Below are positions 4,101-63,234 of a DNA stretch of 64,000 nucleotides, piece by piece. Numbering within the stretch: the stretch's first letter is position 1; the number at the start of each line of letters is the position of its first letter. The notes under the pieces are model-generated. The model made no database searches. It was not told the origin of the DNA and was given only the letters and a program-made list of their open reading frames with translations. Location: contig JACQAL010000016.1 in NCBI GenBank assembly GCA_016195025.1, positions 1 to 64,000 on the forward strand. Direction: 5' to 3'. The translations under genes were made by a program, and so were the position numbers. The stretch comes from Bacteroidota bacterium (GTDB taxonomy: Bacteria > Bacteroidota > Bacteroidia > Palsa-948).

Positions 4101-7100
4101 TTATCTCAACAGCGTTACAAACCCCTTCAGTTGTATTCCCTTCAAATCAAAAATATAAAAGTAAGTCCCTTCGGGAACACTCACGCCTGCGGAGGTTTTT
4201 CCATCCCAGCACGCGCCCGAATATTCAGAATAATACACAGGAATTCCCCAGCGGTTATAAATAGTAAGTTCCGCGCAGCCGGAAAATTTTCCTCCATCGG
4301 CTCCCGATATTTTCGGAATCAGGTTGAAGCAATCATTCATTCCATCGCCATTCGGTGTGAACACATTGGTGGTTTGAATGGAAACATAATTGGATAAATC
4401 TGAAACAGAAATGATTTTCTGCGCGGTATCGGGGCAGGGAGGATTCATAGCCGTAAGAATGATTATATAATTTGAATTATACACGAACGAATGAACAGGA
4501 TTCTGCTCCGAAGAAATAGTTCCATCGCCAAAATTCCAACTCCATGCCGCAGCATTCAAACTTGAATCGGCAAACTTCGCTTCCATTCCATCGCAGGCGA
4601 GTGAAAGCGTGTAAGCGAAATTTGCAACGGGAGTTATTCCAATCATAACCGAAACCGAGTCCACATTCACGCAGCCGTTTGCATCTGTTCCGGTTAATGT
4701 ATACGTTGTTTGAATAGTTGGCGCAACCGAAATTGAAGTTGCGGTGGCTCCGCTGCTCCACGAATAAATTATTCCTCCGCTGGCGGTGAGTGTTACCAAA
4801 CTTCCCGGGCAAAGCGTTTGATTTATTCCCGCGTTGATGTTCGGCAAAGCGTTCACCGTAAGTTGCACCGAGTCGGAATTAATGCAGCCGTTCGCGTTCG
4901 TAACAGTTACCGTATACGTGGCGCTGCTTGTTGGCGTAGCAACCGGGTTGGAAATGTTCGGATTGCTTAATCCGCTGGACGGGCTCCACAAATAATTTAT
5001 GCCGCCCGATGCATTCAGCAAAACCGAATCGCCCGCGCAGATTGCAGTATCATTCGAAGTATTTACAACAGGAAGCGCATTCACAAACACAGTGGCTGAA
5101 TCCATATTCGAACATCCGTTCGCATCGGTTCCAATCACCGTATAAGTGGAAGAAGAAGTGGGTGAAACTGAAATCGAAGTGGAGGTCTGCGTGGTGCTCC
5201 ACGAATATAAATTTCCTCCGCTGGCAGTGAGCGTGGTTGAATCTCCAACGCAAATCGAAACATCCGCTCCCGCAGAAATTATTGGAAGCGCATTCACAAA
5301 CACAGTTGCCGAATCAACATTCGAACATCCGTTTGCATCCGTTCCAATCACCGTGTACGTGGAAGAAGAAGTGGGCGCAACCGCATTCACAAACACAGTT
5401 GCCGAATCAGCATTCGAACATCCGTTTGCATCCGTTCCAATCACCGTGTACGTGGAAGAAGAAGTGGGCGCAATGGAAATGGAAGTGGAAGTTTGTGTGG
5501 TGCTCCATGAATATAAATTTCCTCCGCTGGCAGTGAGTGTTGTTGTATTTCCGAAGCAAATGGAAACATCCGCTCCCGCAGAAATTATTGGAAGCGCATT
5601 CACAAACACCGTTGCCGAATCAACATTCGAACATCCGTTTGCATCCGTTCCAATCACCGTGTACGTGGAAGAAGAAGTCGGAGAAATAGAAATGGAAGTG
5701 GACGTTTGCGTGGTGCTCCACGAATATAAATTTCCTCCGCTGGCGGTGAGCGTGGCAGTATTCCCTGAACAAATTGAAACATCCGCTCCGGCAGAAATAA
5801 CCGGAAGCGCATTCACAACTACAACTACCGTAGCCGTTCCGCTGCAGGTGAACGTGGATGCGGTAACAACATACGTTGTGGTGGCAGTGGGAGATGCTGT
5901 CGGGTTTGCAAGGGTAGAATTATTTAATCCGGTGGATGGATTCCACTGATACGTTGCTCCAACAGGCGCAGTGGGCGCACCGCCAATGGTAATGCTTGTT
6001 CCAATGCAAATGGAAACATTGGGTCCTGCATTGGTGGGAACAACCGGATTCAAAAAAACTGTCAGCGTATCCCAGTTCGCGCAGCCGTTTGCATCGGTAA
6101 TGTTCACCGTATACTGCGTAGTGATAGTTGGATTTGCAACGGGGTTGGAAATGTTCGGATTGCTCAGCGAAGAAGCAGGCGCCCAGTTATAGGTTACTCC
6201 GTTGCTTGCATTCAGCGTAACAGAAAATCCCGGGCACATCCATCCGGGTTTCGGTCCGGCATTGGCAAGCGGAAGAGGATTTACAAAAACTTTTACCGTG
6301 TCACTATTCGTGCAGGAGTTCGCATCGGTAATCATCACCGTATAATTGGTGGTGGAAGTGGGATTCGCAACGGGGTTGGAGCAAAGCGTGCACGATAAAC
6401 TTCCCGAAGGGCTCCACGAAAAGTTTCCGCTGCCTGTTGCATTCAGCGTGGAAGAATTTCCAATGCAAATGGAAACATCCGCTCCGGCATTCACCGCGGG
6501 CTTGGGTAAAACATTAACGGAAACAAAATCGGTGTCGGTGCAACTGTTCAGCGATACAACGAGCGTGTAAGTTGTGTTCACAGTCGGATTCGCAACCGGG
6601 TTTGAAATGGTTGAATTGTTTAAACTCCCCGAAGGCGACCAGTTATAGGTTCCTCCCCCGCTTCCGTTCAATGTTGTAGTAAAGCCGGGACAAACAGTTG
6701 CATCGGGTCCGGCATTTGCAACGGGCGGTTGATTCACAAATACTGTAACCACTGCGGTGTTGGTGCAGGTGGTTGGTGCGTTTACGTTCAGCGTATAGGT
6801 TGTAGTGGCGGTTGGATTCGCTATGGGATTTGCGCAAGTGGTGCACGATAATCCGGTGGAAGGACTCCAGTTATAGGTTGAACCGGCAGGACCTGTCGGA
6901 TTTCCTCCAAGCGTAATTGAATTGCCGTTGCATATAGTTTGATTCGCTCCGGCATTTACAACGGGAAGTTGATTCACCGTAACTGAAACCGTTCCCGTGC
7001 TGGTGCATCCTGCCGATGAAGTAACCGTAACGGTATAGTTTGTTGTCGAAGTCGGATTCGCAACGGGATTGGAAATATTCGGATTGCTCAATCCGTTGGA

Positions 7101-8717
7101 AGGGCTCCACGAATAAGTTCCTCCGCCCGTTGCATTGAGCGAAACCGAATTGCCGGTGCAGATGGTGGAATTTGCTGCGGCAGTAACCACAGGCGCGGGC
7201 TGAATGGAAACATTCAGGGAAATGGGACCGGCAGAACATCCGTGCGAGTTGTAAGAAGTAACTGAAATGGTTCCGTTGGGTCCGCTTCCCCACGTAACAT
7301 TCACGCTGCTTGTCCCCTGCCCCGATGTAATGCTTCCTCCGGAAACCGTCCATGAAAAAGAACTTCCGCTCGAAGCGGGCACGCTGTATGTTCCCGAGGT
7401 GTTCTGGCAAAGCGGATTGGGTCCACTGATGGAACTTGGTCCGTTGTAAGGCAAAACCTGTATGGTGTAAACCACATTGGTAACTTTTGGCGGGCATCCG
7501 TTATCGGGCGCCTGCACAATGAAAAAATAATTTCCCGCCTGCGTGCAGGCAATGTTCCAGCAGAAATTACTGGTAACGCTTCCGTTTCCTGCGGCAGGAT
7601 TGGGCGTTATGGTTGCCGGAGGATTGGTGGGCGGATTATTAAACAATGTTCCCGATGCACTGAAAAATACGCTGTCGCCATTGGCATCGTTGAAGGTGAT
7701 GGGAAAGCAGAGCGTATCTCCCACGTTCGCAATATAATTTGTCTGCCCTGTTGTGGGAGCAAGATTTGGCGCGCTGTTGGGCGGACAGTTCACCACAATG
7801 ATTTGCATATCGAGCCGCGTGATTCCCACCAACTGATTATTTCTAAACTCCTGCAGTTCCACCGCCACCACAAAATAGCCGGTTGTCGGGGAAAGATATT
7901 GCGACAAGCCGGTGAAGGCATTCACCGAAGCATAGCCGCCCGGACCAAATGGCTGAGAGGCGCTGTATCCGGCTGCATAGTTTACCAGCGGAATGGGAAA
8001 CGTATACGGATTAGGCGGAACGGGAACGGGATTGGTTTGCGATGCGTAGCCGTTGTAGGGCTGCACGAGGGAATATACAATCACATCTCCATCGGGGTCA
8101 ATGGCGGTGTTGAGAATGCTGGCAGTATCGTTCACGCATATATAAGGAACGGGGGGAAGCGCAAAGGTGGGCGAACTGTTGTTTACAAACGTGGGCGGAA
8201 CAAAACAATAATAGGTCTGCGCGGCAGCACCGGGGTTTGCAAGGTTGATGATGTTTCCGTTGCGGCAGCACCGCTCGAAAATGAGATGGTAGCCGCCATT
8301 GCTGGCGGGAAGTTCAATCACATCGGTATAAATTCCTTCTTCCACACACACCACCGGAGCGCTCACGCACTGCCCCGCTCCGGGCAGCGCCACCCAGTTT
8401 TGCGAAGTGAGCGGAATGGTGAAACTGTTTGCCAGAACTTTGTTGGGGTCGTTGGGATTGAGCCAGTCCTGAATGTATGCTCCAACATCTACATTCGGAT
8501 TAAGCGTTGCCGTGGTGCAGGTTCCGCAGGGAAGCGTCTGGTCATCGCAGTAGCGGTAAATTTTCAGCGTAACCTGATATTTATAGTTGCCCGTAGAAGA
8601 ATTCAGCCCCAGATATTGATAACCCGCCCAGCCGCCCATGAGATGTGTGGCAAAGGAAAGAGAAGTAAGAAGTAAGAAGTAAGAAGTAAGAAGTATTTTG
8701 ATGGAAATTAAGCGCAT
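4101..8717 (-). CDS. Giant Ig/PKD-like repeat surface protein with intact T9SS type B sorting domain
   Basis: 1538 residues. Signal peptide ~1-23 (LLTSYFLLLTSLSFA) followed by THLMGGWAGYQY. Residues ~25-420 form an N-terminal domain rich in Pro/Asn; ~430-510 is a PKD-like unit; ~510-1370 hold about a dozen repeats of ~70-80 residues with the pattern NAGADVSICxGNSxTLxASGG...W...TSSSTYTVIGTDANGC..DSATVFVN. A PKD domain (WSWNFGDGTISSEQNPVH) precedes the C-terminal sorting domain (FTPNGDGMNDCF ... NRWGIPVYYSEYSGACWDGK ... VTLLR). Role is inferred as a T9SS-exported surface adhesin or matrix protein. Two oddities are visible: a seven-base tandem repeat inside the signal-peptide codons, and a 93-bp tandem duplication that makes one incomplete Ig-like unit. 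No clear TAnnTTTG promoter is seen immediately upstream; a 21-bp repeat array lies there instead. Confidence 0.92.
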   Translation of the reverse strand: MRLISIKILLTSYFLLLTSLSFATHLMGGWAGYQYLGLNSSTGNYKYQVTLKIYRYCDDQTLPCGTCTTATLNPNVDVGAYIQDWLNPNDPNKVLANSFTIPLTSQNWVALPGAGQCVSAPVVCVEEGIYTDVIELPASNGGYHLIFERCCRNGNIINLANPGAAAQTYYCFVPPTFVNNSSPTFALPPVPYICVNDTASILNTAIDPDGDVIVYSLVQPYNGYASQTNPVPVPPNPYTFPIPLVNYAAGYSASQPFGPGGYASVNAFTGLSQYLSPTTGYFVVAVELQEFRNNQLVGITRLDMQIIVVNCPPNSAPNLAPTTGQTNYIANVGDTLCFPITFNDANGDSVFFSASGTLFNNPPTNPPATITPNPAAGNGSVTSNFCWNIACTQAGNYFFIVQAPDNGCPPKVTNVVYTIQVLPYNGPSSISGPNPLCQNTSGTYSVPASSGSSFSWTVSGGSITSGQGTSSVNVTWGSGPNGTISVTSYNSHGCSAGPISLNVSIQPAPVVTAAANSTICTGNSVSLNATGGGTYSWSPSNGLSNPNISNPVANPTSTTNYTVTVTSSAGCTSTGTVSVTVNQLPVVNAGANQTICNGNSITLGGNPTGPAGSTYNWSPSTGLSCTTCANPIANPTATTTYTLNVNAPTTCTNTAVVTVFVNQPPVANAGPDATVCPGFTTTLNGSGGGTYNWSPSGSLNNSTISNPVANPTVNTTYTLVVSLNSCTDTDFVSVNVLPKPAVNAGADVSICIGNSSTLNATGSGNFSWSPSGSLSCTLCSNPVANPTSTTNYTVMITDANSCTNSDTVKVFVNPLPLANAGPKPGWMCPGFSVTLNASNGVTYNWAPASSLSNPNISNPVANPTITTQYTVNITDANGCANWDTLTVFLNPVVPTNAGPNVSICIGTSITIGGAPTAPVGATYQWNPSTGLNNSTLANPTASPTATTTYVVTASTFTCSGTATVVVVVNALPVISAGADVSICSGNTATLTASGGNLYSWSTTQTSTSISISPTSSSTYTVIGTDANGCSNVDSATVFVNALPIISAGADVSICFGNTTTLTASGGNLYSWSTTQTSTSISIAPTSSSTYTVIGTDANGCSNADSATVFVNAVAPTSSSTYTVIGTDANGCSNVDSATVFVNALPIISAGADVSICVGDSTTLTASGGNLYSWSTTQTSTSISVSPTSSSTYTVIGTDANGCSNMDSATVFVNALPVVNTSNDTAICAGDSVLLNASGGINYLWSPSSGLSNPNISNPVATPTSSATYTVTVTNANGCINSDSVQLTVNALPNINAGINQTLCPGSLVTLTASGGIIYSWSSGATATSISVAPTIQTTYTLTGTDANGCVNVDSVSVMIGITPVANFAYTLSLACDGMEAKFADSSLNAAAWSWNFGDGTISSEQNPVHSFVYNSNYIIILTAMNPPCPDTAQKIISVSDLSNYVSIQTTNVFTPNGDGMNDCFNLIPKISGADGGKFSGCAELTIYNRWGIPVYYSEYSGACWDGKTSAGVSVPEGTYFYIFDLKGIQLKGFVTLLR
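5290..5475 (-). repeat. 93-bp tandem duplication inside the Ig-repeat gene
   Basis: Positions 5290-5382 and 5383-5475 are near-identical (only a few base differences, e.g. AATCAACATTC against AATCAGCATTC). The length is 31 codons, less than the ~75-residue domain period, so the second copy encodes only the back half of an Ig-like unit (VNAVAPTSSSTYTVIG joins a normal end to a partial repeat). It keeps frame. A recent unequal recombination is the simplest reading. Confidence 0.9.
8661..8695 (-). repeat. Five copies of heptanucleotide AGAAGTA in signal-peptide codons
   Basis: Plus-strand AGAAGTA occurs five times without interruption at 8661, 8668, 8675, 8682 and 8689. On the coding (minus) strand it encodes most of the hydrophobic core ILLTSYFLLLTS of the signal peptide. 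Since 7 is not a multiple of 3, gain or loss of one unit would shift the reading frame. Confidence 0.9.
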
Positions 8718-8802: not shown

Positions 8803-8970
8803 GAGATAATTATGTCTTTAATCTCTCCAATTGTTACCTTCAGATGTCCAATTGTGTCTTTCTTCTCTCGGATTGTTACCTTCAGAGGTCTGATGGTATC
8901 TTTCTTCTCTCCAATTGTTACCTTCAGAGGTCTGATTGTGTCTTTCATCTCTCGGATTGCATCTTTTTAT
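8803..8970. repeat. 21-bp tandem array 1 (eight units, alternating A/B forms)
   Basis: Eight units of exactly 21 bp. Two forms alternate, giving a 42-bp higher-order period: form A starts TCTCCRATTGTTACC and ends TTCAGA (8824, 8866, 8908); form B starts GGTCTGATTGTGTC and ends TTTCTTC (8845, 8887, 8929; degenerate at 8803). The last unit (8950) is degenerate. Because 21 is a multiple of 3 and the unit has no stop, frames are open on both strands: minus 8742-8948 gives 68 residues with heptads such as KDTIRPL KVTIGEK; plus 8790-9011 is also open. It starts ~35 bp beyond the stop codon of the 9005-10591 gene and ends ~85 bp before the start of the 4101-8717 gene. No Shine-Dalgarno or promoter is evident, so I treat it as a repeat rather than a proven gene. 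Confidence 0.85.
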
Positions 8971-41657: not shown

Positions 41658-44600
41658 TTACCGTATCAAATACATCTTTCCGTATCCCTGGGTAAAAAAT
41701 GAATCTGCGTTTGTATCGCGGTGCTCGAGTGCTTTTCCATCGAGTTGCGTCTGCAGACGGTAAAGATAAATTCCGTTGGCAAGCTGGTCACCAAATTCAT
41801 CTTTGCCGTCCCAGGCGTAATCGGTAATATTTCTTCCGATGTGCAGAAAGCCAAGTTCATATTTATTTAGTTCACGGATAATTTTTCCGGTGATGGTCAT
41901 AATCTGAATTTTAAAATAATCGGGAACCACCGAGCCGGTGAGCGTGAACACAAACCGCGTGGAAGTGGAAAACGGATTCGGATAATTCATCACGTTGGTA
42001 ACCGTTGGCTTGTTGATGACTTCAAAAGAAATTTTATACTCGCTGCTTCCGGATTTATTTCCGCTGCGGTCTTTCGCCTGAACTTTCAGTTCATAAATTC
42101 CATCGGGCAATGCGGGAGTATAATTTATTTTGCAACTGTTATTCGGAAGAACCGCAGAATAGAAAACCAAGTTGCTTCCGAAAGAAATCGTATCGTAGTT
42201 GTTACTGCCCGGCCGTTTTAAGCTCACATTAAATGCAGAAGGATCATTCAGCGCAAGAAAAGTGTTTTCATCTTTGAGTTTAATCAAAACATTCGGTTTT
42301 GCCGAAACAATATCTCCGTTCATGATGTGCACTCCATCAAATGTTACATCGAGCAGCGGATTTATTTTATCGGCATTTTCCAAGAACGGAATCGTTCCGA
42401 TATTATTAAAATGATATTGCTCCGGTTTGTGCTGGCTGTTGAACGGGTTTGATTCCACCCATAAACTGTTCAAGCCGGCAGGAATTGGCAGCGTAGAAAA
42501 TTTTACCTGCGGACTGAATACACTGTCAATTGCCAGCGGAGGAATTTTCACAGAGGGTTCTGAAATTTTATTGCGGCTGGCATCAAGCACCCAGAAATCA
42601 ACCCAGGTGCTGTCCATGTTATAATCGCCAATGTTTTCAATGGCAACGCTCATGCTGATGCTGTCTCCCTGCTGAACGGGCGAAGTGTAAAACGAATAAT
42701 GTTTCACCGGGTTCAATGAAAGTTCGGGAACGCCATCGTAGTAAACTCTCCAGTAAGTTAACTGGTCAGGCGTGCGCTTTGTGCTGTCTTTCACCCATGC
42801 GCGGAGTTCGAGATACGGAAAAGTATCCGCATTAATTTGCTGGCTGAGAGTAAAAATATCAGGTGAAGTTTTCAGAATATTTTTTATAAGTGTATCAGCG
42901 GTGCTGTTGTTTCTGATTCCGATGACAGAAATTTTTATGGAGTCCTGCGCAGGCGGAGATGGCGCGCGGTATCTCCAGTGCAGCGAATTCCATTTAGATG
43001 CAGGCCCGATAATTTCAGAATAAATATTTCCGCTTTCTCTTTTGAAAATAAGTGTGTCTTTGATAAAAACAGAAGTATCTGTGCTATTGATTCCAATTGC
43101 TTCCGCCACTATACCGCCTTTTCTTCCCACAAGAGCATAGGGAAGATTATTCTGAATGTTTGAAAATTGGGTTGCGCCTATAGATTGAAATGCCTGCACC
43201 AATCCGGGATTTGTTTTCGGACTGTTGCCGCCCAAAAGATCTCCGAGATTATGATTGCCGGAAGTGTATAAAATTATTTTATATCCTGCCGGCACCACAT
43301 TCAGTAAAAAGTTAGCCAGCGAATTCTGGTCGACAGCAGCGCTTGTAAGAAACTCATAGCGATTACAAGGACCAACTGAAGCGCTTCCATAAAATGGCTG
43401 GCCGCCCGGATTATACCATGCATCTCCGGTTAACGGGTCCATAACCGCAATCATCACATGTGGTATGGAAGCAAGAACATACGTACAGTAATTTGCCTGT
43501 ATTCCATCCACCAGCATATAACTGCAATTCGGGTATGGCCAATCAACCATATTTATTGGTTTCACTTCTATGGAATGAACCGAATAATCCAAATCAAAAT
43601 ATCTTTTTGGTTTGTTCGGAAGAATATATTTGTATTTATCTCCCTTCGTAAACTGGAAAAAATGCGATTGCCCCCAGCCGCGCTTGCCCGGCAAATATTC
43701 AAAGGAACTTTCGCGCCACGGATACGTTTGCAAATCCGGATCATTTCTCCGCACGCGCCAGAAATAAACGGAGGTATCTAATTTTGAAAACGGAGGCGAC
43801 CATTTATGAAAATCGGCTTTCACCACTGCGCCCGCCTGCGTTACATATTGTGTTCTTTTAATTGGACTGTTGAACGCATCGGTCGTATCCATTTCAAAAA
43901 TATATTGCGCAGATTTAGCAAACGGATTTGCCGTGTATGCTTTCAGCGTTACATAATCATTCGGAATAATGGCATAGGTGTAAGGATAAACCGGAATAAC
44001 ATCTCCCGAATAAATGAGCAGCGGCACCGCATTGTTGCCGGTCAGGTCATTGTTTGCGTATGCATTGTTTTCATCGGGATTATGAGCAGCATTCACGCGC
44101 ACTTCAAACTTATTCAAGCCGGGCCCTCTCAGCGGGTCAACGGGAAAAATAAATTTCACGGTGTCCCGGAAATAGAGAGGATGAATTTTTTTAGAAGTAT
44201 CCACCGAAGTTCCATCGGCAAAAATCCGTTTCAGTTCAACGGTAACGCTGTCATCGGTGGCTCTGCCGATATTGGTTACAATCACATTCGCAGTAAACGT
44301 GCTTATATCGGTGGAAACATACGATGGAGAAAAATAAACAGAAGTTGGGTCTACCGCATAATCGGGATACATGCTTGCATGAATTATAATTGCCGGGTCG
44401 CCATGCAAAGTAAGTCCAAGGCAGGTGGCATTGATGGACTCACTTCCACCGTTGCCCTCGATGCTGTCAATAGAATATTGAATGCATTTTCCGACTTCGC
44501 TGCCGTATAATTTGCGGCAGAAGTCATTGTAAAATTCCATGTTGAAGGTATGACTGTCCTGCGGAGTTGCGGGACCCGATGAAGCAAGAAAGGCAATCAT

Positions 44601-46742
44601 TCCTTTCGGATTAATCACGTACTGTTCGCTTAATGATGCGCCTTCCGATGGTGCAAGATGAATGTTTCCCGCATAGCAGCCCGTTGCGGAAAAAAACGGA
44701 TACTTTCCCTGGTGATTGTCGTAGTCCTCAGGCGGAAGAAGATTAAATTCCAGAATGGAAGAAGAAGAATGCCCGAAATAAGTAACGAGCGAAACCCCGT
44801 TGTTGATTAATCCGCGAATAGAATCGCTGTTGGAAGTTTGCGTGGGCGAAGAAGAATTTTTGCAGAAGCCGTGAACGTGCCCTCCGAAATAAATATTTTC
44901 AATAATGGGCTTGTAATCATTTTTCAACTCATTGCAAAATGTAAGTTGTTGCCCTGCATCTGCTCCTCCCGACATGTGAATCACTTCTTTGAACCATTCC
45001 TCGCGCGGGGCGTGTTCGTATTCATTCACCTTTGTTCGATACGTGTCCACATCAGCAATGCTTCTTGCCGCCAGCCGCCCGGTTGGAATGAGCGGCTTAA
45101 TTAAATTTCCGTTCAGCGAAGAAACAAGCATGTTGTCGCTGGCAGGATAAGCAATGGTAGGCACCAGGCAATTAGCATAGTTAGATAAATAATTTCCCCA
45201 ATCGGGGGGATTATACTGGTTGCGGCATTTATAATTCTCAATTGATTTTCCGATTAAGAAAAGTTCATGCGGCACGGAAGGAAAAGTATCCGCACAGTAT
45301 TTTGCAAAATGCCGGATGGCAAACGGATGCTTGGGAATTCCATAGGCAAACTGGTCATAGAGTTCCTCCATGTCGGCAAGCACCACATTACGCGAGCCGC
45401 CCTGCGCACTTGCACGGTAACTTTTATAACCAACAGCACCCGTGCTTCCGCTTCCCATTAAACTTTTATTAGTAACAATGATGAATGCCGAATCTGCCGC
45501 CTGCGAAAAATAATTGGTGAAATAGCCGCTGCTGTTCACGGGTTTGATTGAAGGAATCTTATAGTTACTGCTATTATCTGAAGTGAGCACGCAAAATTTT
45601 TCATCGGAAGAAATGGCTGGGCTTGGAATCAGAAATTCATACGAGCCCGAAACAACGGTTGCAGGAATTCTCAGGTTGTCAGTAAAATCATACAGGTAAA
45701 CCGAAGAACTCAGATTATTGAAACTTGTGAATGTAAAATTTGACTTTGCCTGAGTTGAATAAGGAACAAACATTTCGTAATAGGAAGCATTTCCAAGATT
45801 GGCGGTGTGCGGATATTTCAGCACAACATAGGGAACCGCCTGGTAAGTAGTGTTGACAATAGGCAAGGCATCAATTTTAATATCGGTGGATGCCCCGAAT
45901 TGAGAAGAGGGAATTGAAAAAGAAGAATCGTATAACTGGTATCCGTCAAACGCAGTGTCGGCAATAAGAATATATTGCGATAAATTGTTTTTATATTTTA
46001 TTTGCAAATGATGGTCGGGGAAATTGGCTTCATTATTCACTCCCATTACTGCAAGTTTCAGCAGCACGTTTTGCCCGGGATAAATATTGGAAGTATTGAA
46101 TGAAGAACTGAAACCGGGAGGAGGGTTGTTGCCATAGCCGAACTTATCTGCCGCCCATCCTTCCACCTCATCGTATTTCGGATAGGTTACATCATTGCTT
46201 CCTCGCTTGCCTGTATAATAATAAGAATGGTATTCATTTATTATTTCTTTCATGAAATAATTGCTCGCAGGATAAAAAGAAAAATTTGTATCGGAAGAAT
46301 CGGTAATTCGTTTATTAGTTGTGGAATTATTCCAGGTAAGAAAATACATGGAAGTATCGTTGAACAAACTATAATACGGGTTGGGCTGGCGCACCTTCAG
46401 GTTGTATAAATCGCCTTTGTAAAGAACCGAATCGAGCGAGCCGTCATTTTTTCTGCCGTAAAATTCTATGTAGTCATTTATATCGAAAGTATCGTTGTTG
46501 CCATTGTCCTTCACATAAATATATTGTTCCTGCCCTCTGAAAAAAATCTGGAACTTATGCAAATCAATATTCGAAACATTAATTACGGGGGAAAGCGTAG
46601 CGTAATCCAAACGGTAAATTCCGTTTTGCGCAACAGGGATTTTATAATACTGCTGCCCGTAATTTATCCATTCGTTCCAATGCTGCGCCAGGCAAAAAAC
46701 AGGAAAAGAGAAAAAGAGAAAAAAAGTAAACTGTTTTTTCAT
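41658..46742 (-). CDS. Gingipain-type C25 cysteine peptidase, PorU-like (probable T9SS sortase-related)
   Basis: 1694 residues from ATG 46740-46742, where the signal peptide MKKQFTFFLFFSFPVFCLAQ begins; a frame start at 46826 lies upstream of the TATCTTTA element at 46794-46801 and is unlikely. N-terminal beta domain ~20-420 (WINYGQQYYKIPVAQNGIY). The C25 caspase-like domain spans ~430-810, with catalytic His in LVTYFGHSSSS and Cys in FFSATGCYAGN. CARDB/Ig-like beta domains follow, then a FlgD-like module (NYPNPFSTSTRFVF) and the terminal QGYGKMYLIR. PorU is the T9SS sortase that cleaves sorting signals and attaches cargo; this long form with a PorV-like neighbour resembles what is called PorU2. 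Assignment as a sortase rather than a secreted protease is inferred. Confidence 0.8.
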   Translation of the reverse strand: MKKQFTFFLFFSFPVFCLAQHWNEWINYGQQYYKIPVAQNGIYRLDYATLSPVINVSNIDLHKFQIFFRGQEQYIYVKDNGNNDTFDINDYIEFYGRKNDGSLDSVLYKGDLYNLKVRQPNPYYSLFNDTSMYFLTWNNSTTNKRITDSSDTNFSFYPASNYFMKEIINEYHSYYYTGKRGSNDVTYPKYDEVEGWAADKFGYGNNPPPGFSSSFNTSNIYPGQNVLLKLAVMGVNNEANFPDHHLQIKYKNNLSQYILIADTAFDGYQLYDSSFSIPSSQFGASTDIKIDALPIVNTTYQAVPYVVLKYPHTANLGNASYYEMFVPYSTQAKSNFTFTSFNNLSSSVYLYDFTDNLRIPATVVSGSYEFLIPSPAISSDEKFCVLTSDNSSNYKIPSIKPVNSSGYFTNYFSQAADSAFIIVTNKSLMGSGSTGAVGYKSYRASAQGGSRNVVLADMEELYDQFAYGIPKHPFAIRHFAKYCADTFPSVPHELFLIGKSIENYKCRNQYNPPDWGNYLSNYANCLVPTIAYPASDNMLVSSLNGNLIKPLIPTGRLAARSIADVDTYRTKVNEYEHAPREEWFKEVIHMSGGADAGQQLTFCNELKNDYKPIIENIYFGGHVHGFCKNSSSPTQTSNSDSIRGLINNGVSLVTYFGHSSSSILEFNLLPPEDYDNHQGKYPFFSATGCYAGNIHLAPSEGASLSEQYVINPKGMIAFLASSGPATPQDSHTFNMEFYNDFCRKLYGSEVGKCIQYSIDSIEGNGGSESINATCLGLTLHGDPAIIIHASMYPDYAVDPTSVYFSPSYVSTDISTFTANVIVTNIGRATDDSVTVELKRIFADGTSVDTSKKIHPLYFRDTVKFIFPVDPLRGPGLNKFEVRVNAAHNPDENNAYANNDLTGNNAVPLLIYSGDVIPVYPYTYAIIPNDYVTLKAYTANPFAKSAQYIFEMDTTDAFNSPIKRTQYVTQAGAVVKADFHKWSPPFSKLDTSVYFWRVRRNDPDLQTYPWRESSFEYLPGKRGWGQSHFFQFTKGDKYKYILPNKPKRYFDLDYSVHSIEVKPINMVDWPYPNCSYMLVDGIQANYCTYVLASIPHVMIAVMDPLTGDAWYNPGGQPFYGSASVGPCNRYEFLTSAAVDQNSLANFLLNVVPAGYKIILYTSGNHNLGDLLGGNSPKTNPGLVQAFQSIGATQFSNIQNNLPYALVGRKGGIVAEAIGINSTDTSVFIKDTLIFKRESGNIYSEIIGPASKWNSLHWRYRAPSPPAQDSIKISVIGIRNNSTADTLIKNILKTSPDIFTLSQQINADTFPYLELRAWVKDSTKRTPDQLTYWRVYYDGVPELSLNPVKHYSFYTSPVQQGDSISMSVAIENIGDYNMDSTWVDFWVLDASRNKISEPSVKIPPLAIDSVFSPQVKFSTLPIPAGLNSLWVESNPFNSQHKPEQYHFNNIGTIPFLENADKINPLLDVTFDGVHIMNGDIVSAKPNVLIKLKDENTFLALNDPSAFNVSLKRPGSNNYDTISFGSNLVFYSAVLPNNSCKINYTPALPDGIYELKVQAKDRSGNKSGSSEYKISFEVINKPTVTNVMNYPNPFSTSTRFVFTLTGSVVPDYFKIQIMTITGKIIRELNKYELGFLHIGRNITDYAWDGKDEFGDQLANGIYLYRLQTQLDGKALEHRDTNADSFFTQGYGKMYLIR

Positions 46743-46830
46743 CGGTAAAATTCTAAACAAGCACTCAACGAGCCACTTCATCGAATATTGCTTTAAAGAT
46801 ACGAAATGTAATTCTTCTTTTAGCAAAATA

Positions 46831-46858
46831 AAAAAAGGCGGGAATATCCCGCCTTTTT
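46831..46858. terminator. Bidirectional terminator hairpin
   Basis: AAAAAGGCGGG (46832-46842), loop AATAT, CCCGCCTTTTT (46848-46858). Perfect 11-bp stem flanked by A- and T-runs; it isolates the C25 peptidase promoter from upstream transcription. Confidence 0.85.
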
Positions 46859-46872
46859 CTAAAAATATAATT

Positions 46873-47196
46873 TTATTGTATTATTAATTTCCCAGTTTCA
46901 AGAAGGGTTTGATTATTCCCGATGGCTATCGGGAGACAGATGGAAAACAGCCGTTCTTTACCAAAGCGCTGCAAGCGTCTGCCGAAACTGCGCAGGCGCA
47001 TTCCGAAAAGAGTACAGCGCATTCCCTTTTTAGTACTGCGCATGCCGAAAATAGTACAACGCATTTCTTTTTTAGTAATGCGCATGCCGGAAAGAGTACA
47101 GCGCATTTCCTTTTTAGTAATGCGCATGCCGAAAAGAGTACAGCGCATTCCCTTTTTAGTATTGCGCATTCCATGTTTCGTACTGCGCTGTTTCAT
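46873..47196 (-). pseudogene. Remnant of a T9SS type A sorting tail joined to a 21-bp repeat array
   Basis: The minus-strand frame of 107 codons first runs through the repeat array (heptads GMRNTKK, GMRCTLF, GMRITKK, EMRCTLS) and then ends RLFSICLPIAIGNNQTLLETGKLIIQ, written here in pieces: LPIAIG comes from a CCCGAT palindrome and TLLETGKLIIQ is the usual last strand of a T9SS type A sorting domain (compare EVATGKLIIQ in the 9005-10591 gene). The rest of a sorting domain is absent. I read it as a decayed 3' end of a secreted-protein gene next to an expanded repeat; a small translated protein cannot be excluded, but no promoter or ribosome site is evident. Confidence 0.5.
46917..46934. repeat. 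CCCGAT palindrome
   Basis: TCCCGATGGCTATCGGGA, an 18-bp palindrome with one mismatch. Same family as 63055-63074. Confidence 0.75.
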
Positions 47197-47200
47197 AGTA
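46996..47200. repeat. 21-bp tandem array 2 (about ten units, alternating A/B forms)
   Basis: Unit starts at 46996, 47017, 47038, 47059, 47080, 47101, 47122, 47143, 47164 and 47185 (the last is partial). Form A: GCGCATGCCGAAAAGAGTAC + A; form B: GCGCATTTCCTTTTTAGTAA + T; they alternate strictly over the first eight units, so the real period is 42 bp. Frames are open on both strands. The unit sequence is unrelated to arrays 1 and 3. It fills most of the gap between the PorV-like and C25 peptidase genes. Confidence 0.9.
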
Positions 47201-47447
47201 AAAAATCAAATTTTTCAACAATAACAATTAAAACCTAAAAACAATGCCCGGGCGTGAACAACAAGGGCAAAACGCTGTACCTATTTCTGCAATGGAATGA
47301 TTCTAAAAACCCGAACCGCATAGGTCCGGCAAACGCGTTGATTGCGATTGTGATTTGAGGAATGGCTGGAATAAAAAATCCCTTCTGCTCCTATGGAATA
47401 CGGAGTCCGTAACTTTATTCGGACAGATAATGCGGAAGGGATTTTTT
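47201..47447. other. Non-coding gap with a long branched hairpin (probable terminator of the PorV-like gene)
   Basis: At 47376-47444 AAATCCCTTCTGC pairs with GCGGAAGGGATTT (13 bp, one G-T), enclosing an inner hairpin GTCCG (47405) / CGGAC (47424). T-runs lie on both sides, so it could end transcription in either direction; on the minus strand it directly follows the PorV-like gene. From ~47250 to 47356 a short plus-strand frame (VNNKGKTLYLFLQWNDSKN, 33 codons from GTG) looks protein-like but is not recognised and may be a decayed gene fragment. Confidence 0.55.
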
Positions 47448-48518
47448 TTATTTCGCTTGCTTGTTAATATCGAGGCGCAATGAAAAAATATGCGAGTACA
47501 AAGCAGCCGACTGGTTGCCGAGATTGGTTCTTGCATAATCAATGCTGATTCGTTTGATGCGTATTCCCATTCCGAAATTCGGTTCCATCGTAGTCATGGT
47601 TTTTCCGGTTACATCCTGTTCCTGCTGAATGTTCATGACACCTCCGCGCAAAAACACAATTCCTTTATATCCTATTTCAATTCCCGCGTGCGGGTCAGCG
47701 CTGACGGGGTTGCTCTTGATGAGCACGTTCCGCATTCCGTCAAAAGTTATGTCGAAATTCAGTTCGGCAAGGGCGGTAATGTTTTTCATCATCGGAATTT
47801 TTTTTGCGGCTCCCACAATCAGGCGCGGCAAAGTAATTTCAATGGAGTTGGCAGGAAGTTCGTTTCCTGTTGCAATGAAGGCGTCTTTCATTTCATCCGA
47901 AAGATTAAAACTCCATGCATTGAATGTGGAAGTAACATCTCTCGCCATAGCGCCAAACTTCCAGTCCTTCCATTCATACTGCGCGCCCGCATCCAGACCA
48001 AAGCCCCATGCGCCCGCAAAGTCGCCAACAATCCTGCGGATAACTTTTGCATTCGCGCCCAGCCGAAGCCCTTTTATTTTCGGAGAGCGCGCATACGAAA
48101 GAAGAAACGCGTAATCGGCTGCGGAGAACTGGGTGATGCGGTCATAGTCAATGTTTCCTCCCGCATCAATCAGTTCGGTGGTGTTGGGAATATTATCCAC
48201 GCCAAAACGAATCACGCTGAAAGCAATGGCGCTGCTGCTGTCGAGTTTCCGGGCAACCGCCCCGTAATCGTATTTGGCAATGCCGGCAAAATATTCCGAA
48301 TGCATCAAACCCAACTGCAAATCATTTTTTATTCCGAGAAGCCCTGCCGGATTCCAGTAGCCGGAAGTTACATCTTCGGTGGTTGCCGTGCAGGCATTTG
48401 CCATTCCAAGGGCTCTGCCTCCCACTCCGATGGCAAGAAATTCATTGCTGTATTTGGGTGCCTGAGAAAAACTGAAAACAGAATTGATTACGCTGAGAAG
48501 TAAAAGAATTTTTTTCAT
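47448..48518 (-). CDS. PorV/PorQ-family outer-membrane beta-barrel (PorV2-like)
   Basis: 356 residues. Signal peptide ~1-19 (LLLLSVINSVFSFSQ). Mature start KYSNEFLAIGVGGRALGMAN followed by ACTATTEDVTSGYWNPAGL is the PorV signature; alternating beta-strands follow, with GGVMNIQQEQDVTG and terminal HIFSLRLDINKQAK. PorV is the outer-membrane shuttle that brings T9SS cargo from the translocon to the PorU sortase. Pairing with the PorU-like gene downstream (same strand, separated by array 2) supports a joint role. The usual PorV is ~390 residues; this shorter type resembles PorV2. No clear TAnnTTTG is seen upstream. Confidence 0.85.
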   Translation of the reverse strand: MKKILLLLSVINSVFSFSQAPKYSNEFLAIGVGGRALGMANACTATTEDVTSGYWNPAGLLGIKNDLQLGLMHSEYFAGIAKYDYGAVARKLDSSSAIAFSVIRFGVDNIPNTTELIDAGGNIDYDRITQFSAADYAFLLSYARSPKIKGLRLGANAKVIRRIVGDFAGAWGFGLDAGAQYEWKDWKFGAMARDVTSTFNAWSFNLSDEMKDAFIATGNELPANSIEITLPRLIVGAAKKIPMMKNITALAELNFDITFDGMRNVLIKSNPVSADPHAGIEIGYKGIVFLRGGVMNIQQEQDVTGKTMTTMEPNFGMGIRIKRISIDYARTNLGNQSAALYSHIFSLRLDINKQAK

Positions 48519-60313: not shown

Positions 60314-60607
60314 TATACATCACCGCTCAATGTATATACATTATCTCTGCAGGTACATACATTGCGGTCTAATATACATACATCACGTTTCAAGATTGAT
60401 ACCTTGTCCTATGATATAGATACATCGCGCTTCAATGTAGATACATCACGCTTTAATATACATACCTCCCGCATCAAAGTTGATATCTTGCGCTCTGATG
60501 TAGATACATCGCTCTTCAAGGTAGATGCCTTGCACGCTAACATACATACATCACGCTTCGATGTACATACCTTATGCCTCAAGGTAGATACATCGCGGCT
60601 TAATGTG
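60314..60607. repeat. 21-bp tandem array 3 (fourteen units)
   Basis: Fourteen contiguous units of exactly 21 bp starting at 60314, 60335, 60356 and so on to 60587. Consensus starts GATACATCGCGCTTCAATGT and ends A; each unit can pair TACAT with ATGTA. Units differ at several positions but never in length. Both strands are open: plus 60284-60682 (132 codons, DTSRFNV heptads), minus 60409-60645 (78 codons, DVSTLKR heptads with Val and Leu in a/d-like spacing). It fills the gap between the kelch and BNR protein genes. No Shine-Dalgarno is evident for either frame, although the plus frame would overlap the next ATG by 4 bp (60679-60682). Confidence 0.9.
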
Positions 60608-60678: not shown

Positions 60679-63234
60679 ATGAAAAAACTTTTATTCTTTT
60701 GTCTGGCAGCAATCATACTCCCCTCTCTTTCAGGAGAGGGGTTAGGGGGTGGGGTCTCGGCTCAACCCGCAACCTGGTCTCCCCGCGGCATCGGTGGCGG
60801 AGGCGCGCTGTTTTCGCCAAGCATTAATCCCGCCAACCCCAATGAATATTACATCGCCTGCGATATGAGCGAACTTTTTCACAGCACCGATTTCGGAAAA
60901 TCGTATTCTCAATTACACTTTTCGCAGTTTGTGGGCGGGCACAATTCAAAAGTTTGTTTTACTTCCACCGCAAATCTTTTGTACAGCATCAGTTATCCCG
61001 ACCCCGCGCAGGTGGGAATCCCCGTGAACAGTACGGACAACGGTGTAACATGGACTCCGCTCGCTGGAAATCCCGACCCGAGTTCAGATGTATGGACGCT
61101 CGATGTGGATTATAATAATTCCAATCGCGTCATCATTTCTTTTTACGCTGACATTTGGTTCTCAAGCAACGGAGGAACTACGTTCACAAAAATTCACACA
61201 GCAGCAAATTCAGGAAGCGGAAATGTTGTGGGCGGAGTTTTCTGGGATGGAAATAATATTTACATCGGCACAAATGATGGCGTTTTAATTTCTACCAATG
61301 GCGGAGGAAGCTGGAGCACGGCATCCATCACAGGAATTGCAAACGGTGACCAGATTTTTTCTTTCGCGGGCGCGAAGGTTGGCGTTACCACACGGTTTTT
61401 TTGCCTCACCGCCAACGCGGGAAATATTTATGTAGGCGTGCAGGGTTCTGACTACTGGGGATTTTACACAAGCGTTTATTCCTGTGATTACGGAAGCACG
61501 CAATGGGTGGCGAAGAACACGGGCATCACGCTCAACACCGATTACCCGATGTTCGTTGCGATGGCGCAGAATGATATTGCTACTGCTTACCTCGCGGGAA
61601 GCAACTCAAGCGGTTATCCGAATATTTTGAAAACAACAAACGCTAGCGCGAACTGGTCGCACGTTTTCAACACGAACAACAATCAAAATATTATTACCGG
61701 CTGGAGCGGATACCAGGGAGATAAAGATTGGAGCTGGGGAGAATGTCCGTTTGGAGTTTCGGTTTGTCCGCAAAATTCCAACTATGTAATTTTTGGCGAC
61801 TTTGGTTTCTGCCATAAAACTTCCAATGGAGGAACAACGTGGAAGCAGGCGTATGTTGACACAACGAATCAGCATCCGGCAAACGCGCCCACTCCGAAAA
61901 AAGCAAATTACAATTCCATCGGAATGGAAAACACAACTTGCTGGCAAGTGCATTGGGTGAACGCAAACACGATGTGGTCGTCTTATTCTGACATAGGAGG
62001 AATCCGTTCCACCGATGGAGGAAACAGTTGGTCGTTCAATTATTCCGGAATGACAGTGAACTCAACTTACAGAGTTGCGCAGGGAACGAACGGAACTTTG
62101 TATGCTGCTACTTCCGGCATTCACGATATGTACCAGAGCACGCGCTTAGCCGATGCGCAATTGGATGCCGCAGATGCAAGCGGAAAAATTTCTTACTCCA
62201 CGGATAATGGTTTAACGTGGACGCAGCTTCATTCATTCGGCCATCCGGTTTTCTGGATTGCACTCGACCCGAATAATTCCAACCGCGCCTATGCGAGCGT
62301 GATTCATTACGCAAGCGGAAGCGGAATTGGCGGAGTTTACATTTGCAATGACTTGAATAATCTTTCCACTTCCACCTGGACAAAACTTCCTGACCCACCG
62401 AACACAGAAAAACATCCCGCGTGTTTGGTTGTGCTCAAGGATGGAAAATTAGTTGCAACTTTTTCCGGCAGAAGAAATTCTTCGGGAACTTTTACTGCGA
62501 GTTCAGGTTGTTTTATCTATGACCCGGTCGCAAATTCCTGGACAAATGTTACCGACAACGGAATGAAATACTGGACAAAAGATATTGTGGTTGACCCGAA
62601 TGATGTAACGCAAAACACATGGTATGTTGGTGTCTTCAGCGGATGGGGAGGGCCTCCGAATGGTTTGGGCGGCTTGTACAAAACCACCAACCGCGGAACA
62701 TCGTGGACAAAACTTACGGGAACAACTCTTGACAGAGTAACTTCCTGCACCTTCAATCCAATGAACGCAAATGAAATTTATCTCACCACCGAAACGCAGG
62801 GATTGTGGATGAGCAGCAATATAAATTCTCCTTCTCCAACTTTCAGCAACGTTGCGAATTATCCTTTCAGACAACCGGAAAGAGTTTTCTTCAATCCTTC
62901 CAACACAAACGAAATGTGGGTTTCAAGTTTCGGAAACGGAATGAAAATGGGATTGATGAATCCGAATGGAGTTGCAGAGTTCAGCAATAACAATGAAGAA
63001 AGTTTTTTTGTTTATCCGAATCCTTCTAATGGAGCATTCGAAATTAAAAATGAAATCCCGATAGCTATCGGGATAAAAATTAAAAATGTGGAAGTGTACG
63101 ATGTGTTTGGAGAAAAAGTTTATTCTGAAAAAATTCTAAATACTAATTCCTTAATCCTGAATCTGGATTTATCGAATGGAATTTACTTTTTGAAAATCGG
63201 AAATTCGGTTAAGAAAATAGTAGTGCAAAAATAA
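60679..63234 (+). CDS. Secreted BNR/GH74-like beta-propeller protein with T9SS type A sorting domain
   Basis: 851 residues. Signal peptide 1-~33 is split by an in-frame mini-palindrome: MKKLLFFCLAAIILPSLSGE, then GLGGGVSAQ. The mature part starts WSPRGIGGGGALFSPSINPA, like the start of GH74 xyloglucanases, and has many Asp-box/BNR turns (STDNGVTW, SSNGGTTF, STNGGGSW, STDGGNSW, TTNRGTSW), so one or two seven-bladed propellers. GH74 catalytic Asp residues cannot be assigned with confidence. Sorting domain from FFVYPNPSNGAFEIKNE with palindrome-encoded IPIAIGIKIKN, ending IVVQK. Glycan binding or hydrolysis is a guess from fold. Confidence 0.85.
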   Translation: MKKLLFFCLAAIILPSLSGEGLGGGVSAQPATWSPRGIGGGGALFSPSINPANPNEYYIACDMSELFHSTDFGKSYSQLHFSQFVGGHNSKVCFTSTANLLYSISYPDPAQVGIPVNSTDNGVTWTPLAGNPDPSSDVWTLDVDYNNSNRVIISFYADIWFSSNGGTTFTKIHTAANSGSGNVVGGVFWDGNNIYIGTNDGVLISTNGGGSWSTASITGIANGDQIFSFAGAKVGVTTRFFCLTANAGNIYVGVQGSDYWGFYTSVYSCDYGSTQWVAKNTGITLNTDYPMFVAMAQNDIATAYLAGSNSSGYPNILKTTNASANWSHVFNTNNNQNIITGWSGYQGDKDWSWGECPFGVSVCPQNSNYVIFGDFGFCHKTSNGGTTWKQAYVDTTNQHPANAPTPKKANYNSIGMENTTCWQVHWVNANTMWSSYSDIGGIRSTDGGNSWSFNYSGMTVNSTYRVAQGTNGTLYAATSGIHDMYQSTRLADAQLDAADASGKISYSTDNGLTWTQLHSFGHPVFWIALDPNNSNRAYASVIHYASGSGIGGVYICNDLNNLSTSTWTKLPDPPNTEKHPACLVVLKDGKLVATFSGRRNSSGTFTASSGCFIYDPVANSWTNVTDNGMKYWTKDIVVDPNDVTQNTWYVGVFSGWGGPPNGLGGLYKTTNRGTSWTKLTGTTLDRVTSCTFNPMNANEIYLTTETQGLWMSSNINSPSPTFSNVANYPFRQPERVFFNPSNTNEMWVSSFGNGMKMGLMNPNGVAEFSNNNEESFFVYPNPSNGAFEIKNEIPIAIGIKIKNVEVYDVFGEKVYSEKILNTNSLILNLDLSNGIYFLKIGNSVKKIVVQK
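60718..60757. repeat. G-rich mini-palindrome inside signal-peptide codons
   Basis: CTCCCCTCTCTTTCAGGAGA followed by GGGGTTAGGGGGTGGGG. It encodes PSLSGEGLGGGV between the hydrophobic core and the cleavage region of the secreted propeller protein. Confidence 0.8.
63055..63074. repeat. Perfect 20-bp CCCGAT palindrome inside the sorting-domain codons
   Basis: ATCCCGATAGCTATCGGGAT, fully self-complementary, encoding IPIAIGI. Related palindromes at 30708-30733, 46917-46934 and 59647-59661. Confidence 0.85.

Follow-up and report, generated by a model that had tools for sequence, protein, structure and literature searches.

In a 64,000-nt window of a Bacteroidota genome (contig JACQAL010000016.1; the window is the whole stretch analysed), we found an insertion between a porV2-type and a porU2-type gene that carries an array of 21-bp tandem repeats and the last codons of an uncharacterised gene. 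By itself this feature is ordinary debris. Its interest lies in the link to which it led, of phased 21-bp arrays with a gene family not yet characterised; this link is widespread, spans several families of Bacteroidia and was not found described in the literature searched; neither 21-bp leader arrays in Bacteroidota nor such a gene family turned up in the open-access papers covered. Our preferred reading, to which we give a probability of roughly 0.45, is that the array would be the non-coding leader of a two-part cassette, in which phased sites would set the expression of the gene. Tandem arrays are usually treated as noise, and here the period survives while the sequence does not, which gives a handle on why some bacterial intergenic arrays hold a set period, and also on a gene family left unnamed by the profile libraries tried.

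The array had been described, from the letters alone, as separating a porV-like from a porU-like gene, and profile matches on either side bear this out (Table 1); the annotation of the window is corrected accordingly, the insert now parting porV2 from porU2. In six relatives of the same genus, the two genes overlap by 4 bp (four relatives) or are separated by 6 bp (two), compared with 705 bp in the window. Across the loci of 29 relatives, porU2 adjoins porV2 without a gene-sized gap in 28 and was not found in the remaining one, and TRF detected no array in the porV2-porU2 gap of these 29 loci. Because the genes of the relatives overlap or nearly touch, we interpret the stretch as an insertion and not as the place of a lost resident gene. 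The insert split what looks like a translationally coupled pair. Both of its ends bear terminator-like hairpins, and the one formed by TAAAAAAAGGCGGGA and TCCCGCCTTTTTCTA has 15-nt arms with 93% complementarity and a 3-nt loop.

Table 1. Features of the porV2-porU2 insertion and its flanks, with arrays of two other families (window coordinates unless a locus is given)
Feature	Position	Strand	Basis or remark
porU2-type gene	41658..46742	-	NF052324, E 2e-212; ATG 46742 the probable start, not TTG 46826
705-bp insertion between porV2 and porU2	46743..47447		comparison with six same-genus relatives
Terminator-like inverted repeat TAAAAAAAGGCGGGA / TCCCGCCTTTTTCTA	46829..46861		directly past the stop of the T9SS tail
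T9SS type A tail remnant TLLETGKLIIQ-stop	46873..46905	-	about 12 residues; similar gene ends elsewhere
Palindrome CCCGATGGCTATCGGGAG (LPIAIG stretch)	46917..46934		dispersed short repeat of own genome
boxA-like GTTCTTTAC	46953..46961	+	shortly 5' of the first unit; chance possible
21-bp tandem array	46975..47199	+	eight strict A/B units 46996-47163, looser units either side
Right flank TTTCATAGTAAAAAATCaAATTTTTCAACA	47190..47222	+	common to arrays on C13 and C70
C-terminal scar of the uncharacterised family, about 36 codons	47248..47358	+	own-genome profile search
Terminator-like AAAAAATCCCTTC ... GAAGGGATTTTTTTT	47374..47449		read from sequence
porV2-type gene	47448..48518	-	NF052325, E 9.6e-155
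3'-side arrays of two other small families	L086:7858-8110, L098:15889-16109, L102:11291-11541, L153		

The window array consists of head-to-tail units, each exactly 21 bp long and without spacers between them, so that the unique spacers of a CRISPR array are absent here. TRF reported it both with period 42 (4.1 copies, 90% matches, score 285, at 46996-47169) and with period 21 (8.5 copies at 47011-47188). Units one apart share an identity of 0.59 and units two apart 0.85, and strict A/B alternation extends over eight units, the best period therefore being 42 bp. The alternation and the 42-bp period claimed by the sequence-only reading are thus confirmed, and the flanking units at 46975 (A-like, before) and 47164 (B-like, after) break the alternation. 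Such a pattern is an ordinary higher-order repeat, as tandem duplication of unit pairs would make, and versions with three units and 63 bp were seen in other arrays. The palindrome left of the array has several further exact or near-exact sites in the own genome.

The minus-strand frame running through the array ends in ...LPIAIGNNQTLLETGKLIIQ-stop, and the T9SS genes beside the two other arrays of the window, arrays 1 and 3, end in EVATGKLIIQ and EVATGKLIIE, respectively. Among ORFs of more than 150 aa in the own-genome sample, 7 of 715 end in TGK[LIV][IV][IV] followed by 0 to 3 residues. The T9SS tail fragment noticed earlier is therefore present, and by its sequence it may be taken as a credible T9SS end. 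It resembles the type A sorting domain in its last strand and stop but differs in that just about 12 residues are left; TIGR04183 did not match the minus frame 46873-47196, and the terminal strand was recognised only by eye. From this tail, and from the terminator-like hairpin that follows it, the sequence-only reading had proposed that a T9SS cargo gene once resident between porV and porU was decaying there. That the tail is debris stands. A formerly resident cargo gene, however, is highly improbable: a gene at this site is absent in six of six same-genus relatives, the intact cargo gene that would have pointed to decay was found in none of the relatives' gaps between porV and the C25 peptidase gene, and the array and the right half of the insert belong to another gene, on the opposite strand. 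The fragment was carried in or joined and is separate debris, in opposite orientation to the family scar; on C13, a T9SS end was read by eye at the corresponding place. As had been stated, arrays 1 and 3 come after a T9SS tail, but each is also immediately 5', in the sense orientation, of the T9SS cargo gene that follows: array 1 (8807-8966) of the gene at 4101-8717 (minus), and array 3 (60351-60606) of the gene at 60679-63234 (plus), which has an ATG overlapping the stop of the array 3 frame. Both have the 21/42-bp structure of the window array (array 2), with unrelated units.

A DNA search of the own genome showed that arrays on two other contigs, C13 and C70, share the units and the right flank of the window array. 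On C70, the homologous array is followed by an intact gene for a 280-aa paralogue on the plus strand. In the window, the N-terminal helical domain of the family is missing and about 36 codons are left, reading YLFLQWNDSKNPNRIGPANALIAIVI-stop (longer form, PGVNNKGKTLYLFLQWNDSKNPNRIGPANALIAIVI-stop); an ATG at 47244 precedes this scar out of frame. A profile built from five paralogues found the scar unaided in the own genome (C16:47251-47355, E 3.8e-12), where it matches the C-terminal QWNDSKNP...GP...LITIVI block of the family. Given the intact version on C70 and this E-value, we interpret the window feature as a wrecked cassette, made of an array and a gene end, and its array as belonging with the plus-strand family gene whose C terminus survives here. 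A second array with a C-terminal scar of the family was found (C76; L103:12126-12227, SQAGKTFLGYVQWNDSKNKNRRGPAGDLITFVI), indicating that wrecks of like shape recur.

The genes of the family encode about 220 to 330 aa. We aligned first five (A1) and then 25 (A2) of them, and the members scanned from either set had no significant match in Pfam, NCBIfam, or PHROGs. The C70 protein was modelled with confidence (mean pLDDT 90.8, pTM 0.52), its N-terminal domain being helical and its C-terminal domain a beta-sandwich. Among PDB folds, none matched below E 1e-3, the nearest being FN3 domains for the C-terminal half, and a viral library gave weak matches only, several of them of FN3 type. The family proteins are thus predicted to combine a helical N-terminal domain with an FN3-like C-terminal domain. 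The 25-row profile placed the family in 23 of the 395 class genomes scanned and in 9 of 197 genera; a scan of named genomes gave 5 loci only.

The association between arrays and family was measured in 149 stretches (2.0 Mb) of the own and related genomes, with the upstream zone defined as 600 bp 5' of a gene plus its first 150 bp. Arrays with a 21-bp period, a call that also takes rows of 20 to 22, 42, 63, and 84 bp, were present upstream of 54/80 family genes compared to 36/1199 control ORFs (odds ratio 67, p 7e-51), where the controls are other ORFs of at least 150 aa, uncurated as genes, and the 80 include non-independent orthologues, duplicates having been dropped only by identical last 60 residues. 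ORFs with less than 400 bp upstream were left out of both groups, the family numbering 88 before this step. No array was detected upstream of 26/80 family genes, with TRF at score 60 missing diverged arrays, and an array lay downstream in only 2/77. Unit sequences are mostly unrelated between family copies, and the 21-bp period is constant. Many stretches of the relatives were picked for a family hit, and array densities there are not those of a random sample. In 890 kb of the own genome we tallied 24 arrays, of which 7 precede a family gene and 2 precede a scar, the others having different neighbours, and the relation is thus not exclusive; 440 kb of this genome that were not chosen for hits held 5 arrays, 0 of them upstream of a family gene. 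True 21-bp arrays numbered 0 in a small sample of 400 kb from four family-negative genomes, where two 21-bp rows were multiples of a 7- or 14-bp run and two more rows had period 22.

In arrays spanning 60 bp or more, period 21 far outnumbers any other (24 own-sample arrays and 19 in relatives), with period 18 coming next (n = 4). At 10.5 bp to a turn of B-DNA, 21 bp makes two turns, and every multiple of it a whole number. In the leaders of five orthologous genes (proteins 77 to 96% identical), copies of CCGTACATAT are spaced 42 or 63 bp apart, in one case 64, and the last copy lies 49 bp 5' of the start codon in all five species, while much of the sequence between copies has diverged. A 16-base form of this motif has seven matches in one 20-kb stretch, compared to 0.17 in shuffles. 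Directly 3' of the last copy, TAnnTTCGCA is conserved (L152, L159, L167, L168, and L185); a promoter-like TAnnTTCG thus follows the array in these five leaders, and the array there may precede the transcript. Elsewhere the motif differs. Side-by-side binding on one helix face would call for just such a steady spacing between changing sequences, and we regard it as the best-supported mechanism. Half-unit phasing was absent, similarity at 10 to 11 bp within units being mostly below that of shuffles (z to -3.5), and a 7-bp sub-period was not seen in the arrays (lag-7 z 0.3).

A neutral satellite, arising as a by-product of slippage or unequal crossing-over beside duplicating genes, with 21 bp kept by the duplication machinery and without function, is an unlikely alternative to phased sites. 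It would fit the fast turnover and the higher-order repeats of the arrays, their occurrence at ordinary genes as well, and the decay of the window copy and the C76 copy. However, it does not account for the excess of upstream arrays at family genes over controls, for the fixed side of the gene that arrays keep, or for the fixed spacing of CCGTACATAT in five species with diverged spacers, and the family-negative genomes, small as that sample is, had none of the true arrays.

We compared codon positions among units in arrays with at least four clean units, which left out 7 of the 47 arrays found. None of the 40 arrays had a codon-position bias at p < 0.05 (Fisher p 0.99), and the window array gave p 0.93. 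The claim that the 107-codon minus frame is a remnant and not a gene agrees with this result, obtained between units and not between species, and the frame is out as a gene for a heptad-repeat protein. In several arrays, including those of the five orthologous CCGTACATAT leaders, all six frames are interrupted by stops. A translated leader peptide of heptad repeats, or a small repeat protein, is very unlikely on these grounds, even though a number of arrays are spanned by an open frame that has an ATG 5' of the array and closes shortly before the gene (e.g., C70 462-863) and in two members (L065 and L069) the heptads run in frame into the N terminus of the gene. Frames tend to stay open without any translation wherever the unit length is divisible by 3, and the plus strand of the window array also has open frames. 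The in-frame heptads of L065 and L069 are left unexplained by the non-coding model.

Dyad symmetry of every unit, an initial impression by eye, was rejected (whole-unit score, Fisher p 0.6). Contiguous stems were mildly enriched (mean, 4.08 versus 3.38), with 6/40 arrays at p < 0.05 (Fisher p 0.026). Since the window array has practically no stems, we dropped the dyad as a general rule. RNA hairpins were rejected as well: changes giving G-U pairs (46, sense) did not exceed those giving A-C (55), and stem-capable units had just 6 compensatory cells compared with 779 paired ones. Arrays in 18 loci were unmatched by Rfam.

Signals upstream of the arrays point to transcription in a minority of them. 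Promoter-like pairs, TTG-N17-24-TANNTTTG, on the pattern of the Bacteroidetes promoter consensus, occur upstream of 8/54 arrays in sense and 0 in antisense (null 0.6), and the space between array and gene showed no enrichment of them. For GTTCTTTGA, the 200 bp 5' of the arrays contain the motif in 10/54 cases in sense and in 0 in antisense (expected 0.09), and it lies within 600 bp of 11/80 family genes, compared to 5/1199 controls. We take this motif to be boxA, an identity that its rRNA positions and the L. pneumophila Lens boxA support. In the rRNA loci of three relatives, it precedes the 16S start by about 134 to 157 bp and recurs 3' of 16S, the usual places of boxA. The boxA of the L. pneumophila Lens CRISPR is given as GTTCTTTAAAA in the excerpted text of PMC7862264, and the excerpt of PMC12691694 has boxA protecting long untranslated transcripts, such as those of rRNA and CRISPR arrays, from Rho. 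In the own genome, an array follows none of the 30 GTTCTTTGA sites examined (38 found); the own-genome C75 member has GTTCTTTGA 113 bp before its array, and GTTCTTTAC is the sole such motif directed into any of the 24 own-genome arrays and may be due to chance. With boxA and promoter-like sites upstream in sense only, a subset of arrays has the appearance of antiterminated leaders, and some arrays at least resemble leaders that are transcribed but not translated.

The same signals would suit an action after transcription, in which the array would be a long antiterminated 5' untranslated region of repeats that an RNA-binding protein would bind or an RNase would cleave, much as with a CRISPR-type transcript that lacks spacers; natural CRISPR arrays are headed by boxA in the portions of PMC12691694 and PMC7862264 available. 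We regard such an RNA-level leader as rather unlikely, because the pairing counts and the Rfam result argue against it and an RNA role explains no exact 21 nt.

In our preferred reading, the cassette would consist of a 21-bp array followed by the family gene, the array being a leader that in intact cassettes would act as DNA or RNA and not as protein. In the own species, one copy is the insert in the porV2-porU2 operon, its gene lost save for the last 36 codons. Transcription would start 5' of the array and run through it into the gene, and boxA, where present, would stop Rho from ending the long untranslated transcript. The units would be repeated sites two B-DNA turns apart, where a putative regulator would bind side by side on one helix face and set gene expression; here we infer the binding protein, its cooperative binding, and the direction of control, going beyond what the data show: the insertion, the homology, the non-coding character, the tie to the family, the constant period, and boxA and promoter enrichment in a subset. 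Because the unit sequence mostly differs by copy, one sequence-specific protein cannot read all arrays. The family genes without a detected array, 26 in number, and the many arrays whose neighbours are unrelated genes weigh against this phased-leader reading. So do the 5 arrays of the unselected 440 kb, the 3'-side arrays of two other families, the lack of half-unit phasing, the small share of arrays with boxA or promoter-like sites, and the promoter-like sequence 3' of the array in the five CCGTACATAT leaders. A wider proposal, which we hold to be doubtful, is an undescribed Bacteroidia module: a multi-copy family of small helical-plus-FN3-like proteins whose genes each follow a non-coding phased array of their own, with boxA protection in a subset. 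The arrays, changing in sequence at almost all loci but kept at a period of exactly two turns, would make up a locus-specific addressing code for a phase-sensitive DNA- or RNA-binding machinery, possibly including the encoded protein itself.

Three known systems resemble these arrays in part. Iteron arrays, found at plasmid and phage replication origins, are direct repeats about two helical turns long beside one gene. The likeness lies in the repeat length and the adjoining gene; the arrays described here differ in that they are on chromosomal contigs, have a new unit sequence at nearly every locus, and neighbour no known Rep, none of the family members scanned having a Rep-type match in Pfam, NCBIfam, or PHROGs. 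With the boxA-headed CRISPR arrays described in the excerpts of PMC7862264 and PMC12691694, they share a non-coding array, a boxA in the leader of a subset and, in one orthologue set, conserved repeats with diverged spacers of fixed length; unlike them, most have no unique spacers, and the period is 21 compared with a CRISPR range of 58 to 81 bp in the excerpted text of PMC6344855. The prokaryotic intergenic tandem or heptamer repeats in that same text are likewise tandem, intergenic, and of function unknown, but the arrays here have period 21, no 7-bp sub-period, and a tie to a gene family and to one side of it.

Two other small families, one of them with a CarboxypepD_reg domain, have an array on the 3' side in 2/2 and 2/2 members (Table 1). 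In addition, a near-perfect 21-bp array of ATAGTAAACTATAGCGAATTT (L094:7393-7573), with no family gene near, adjoins a minus-strand gene of 417 aa that is ABC permease-like by eye.
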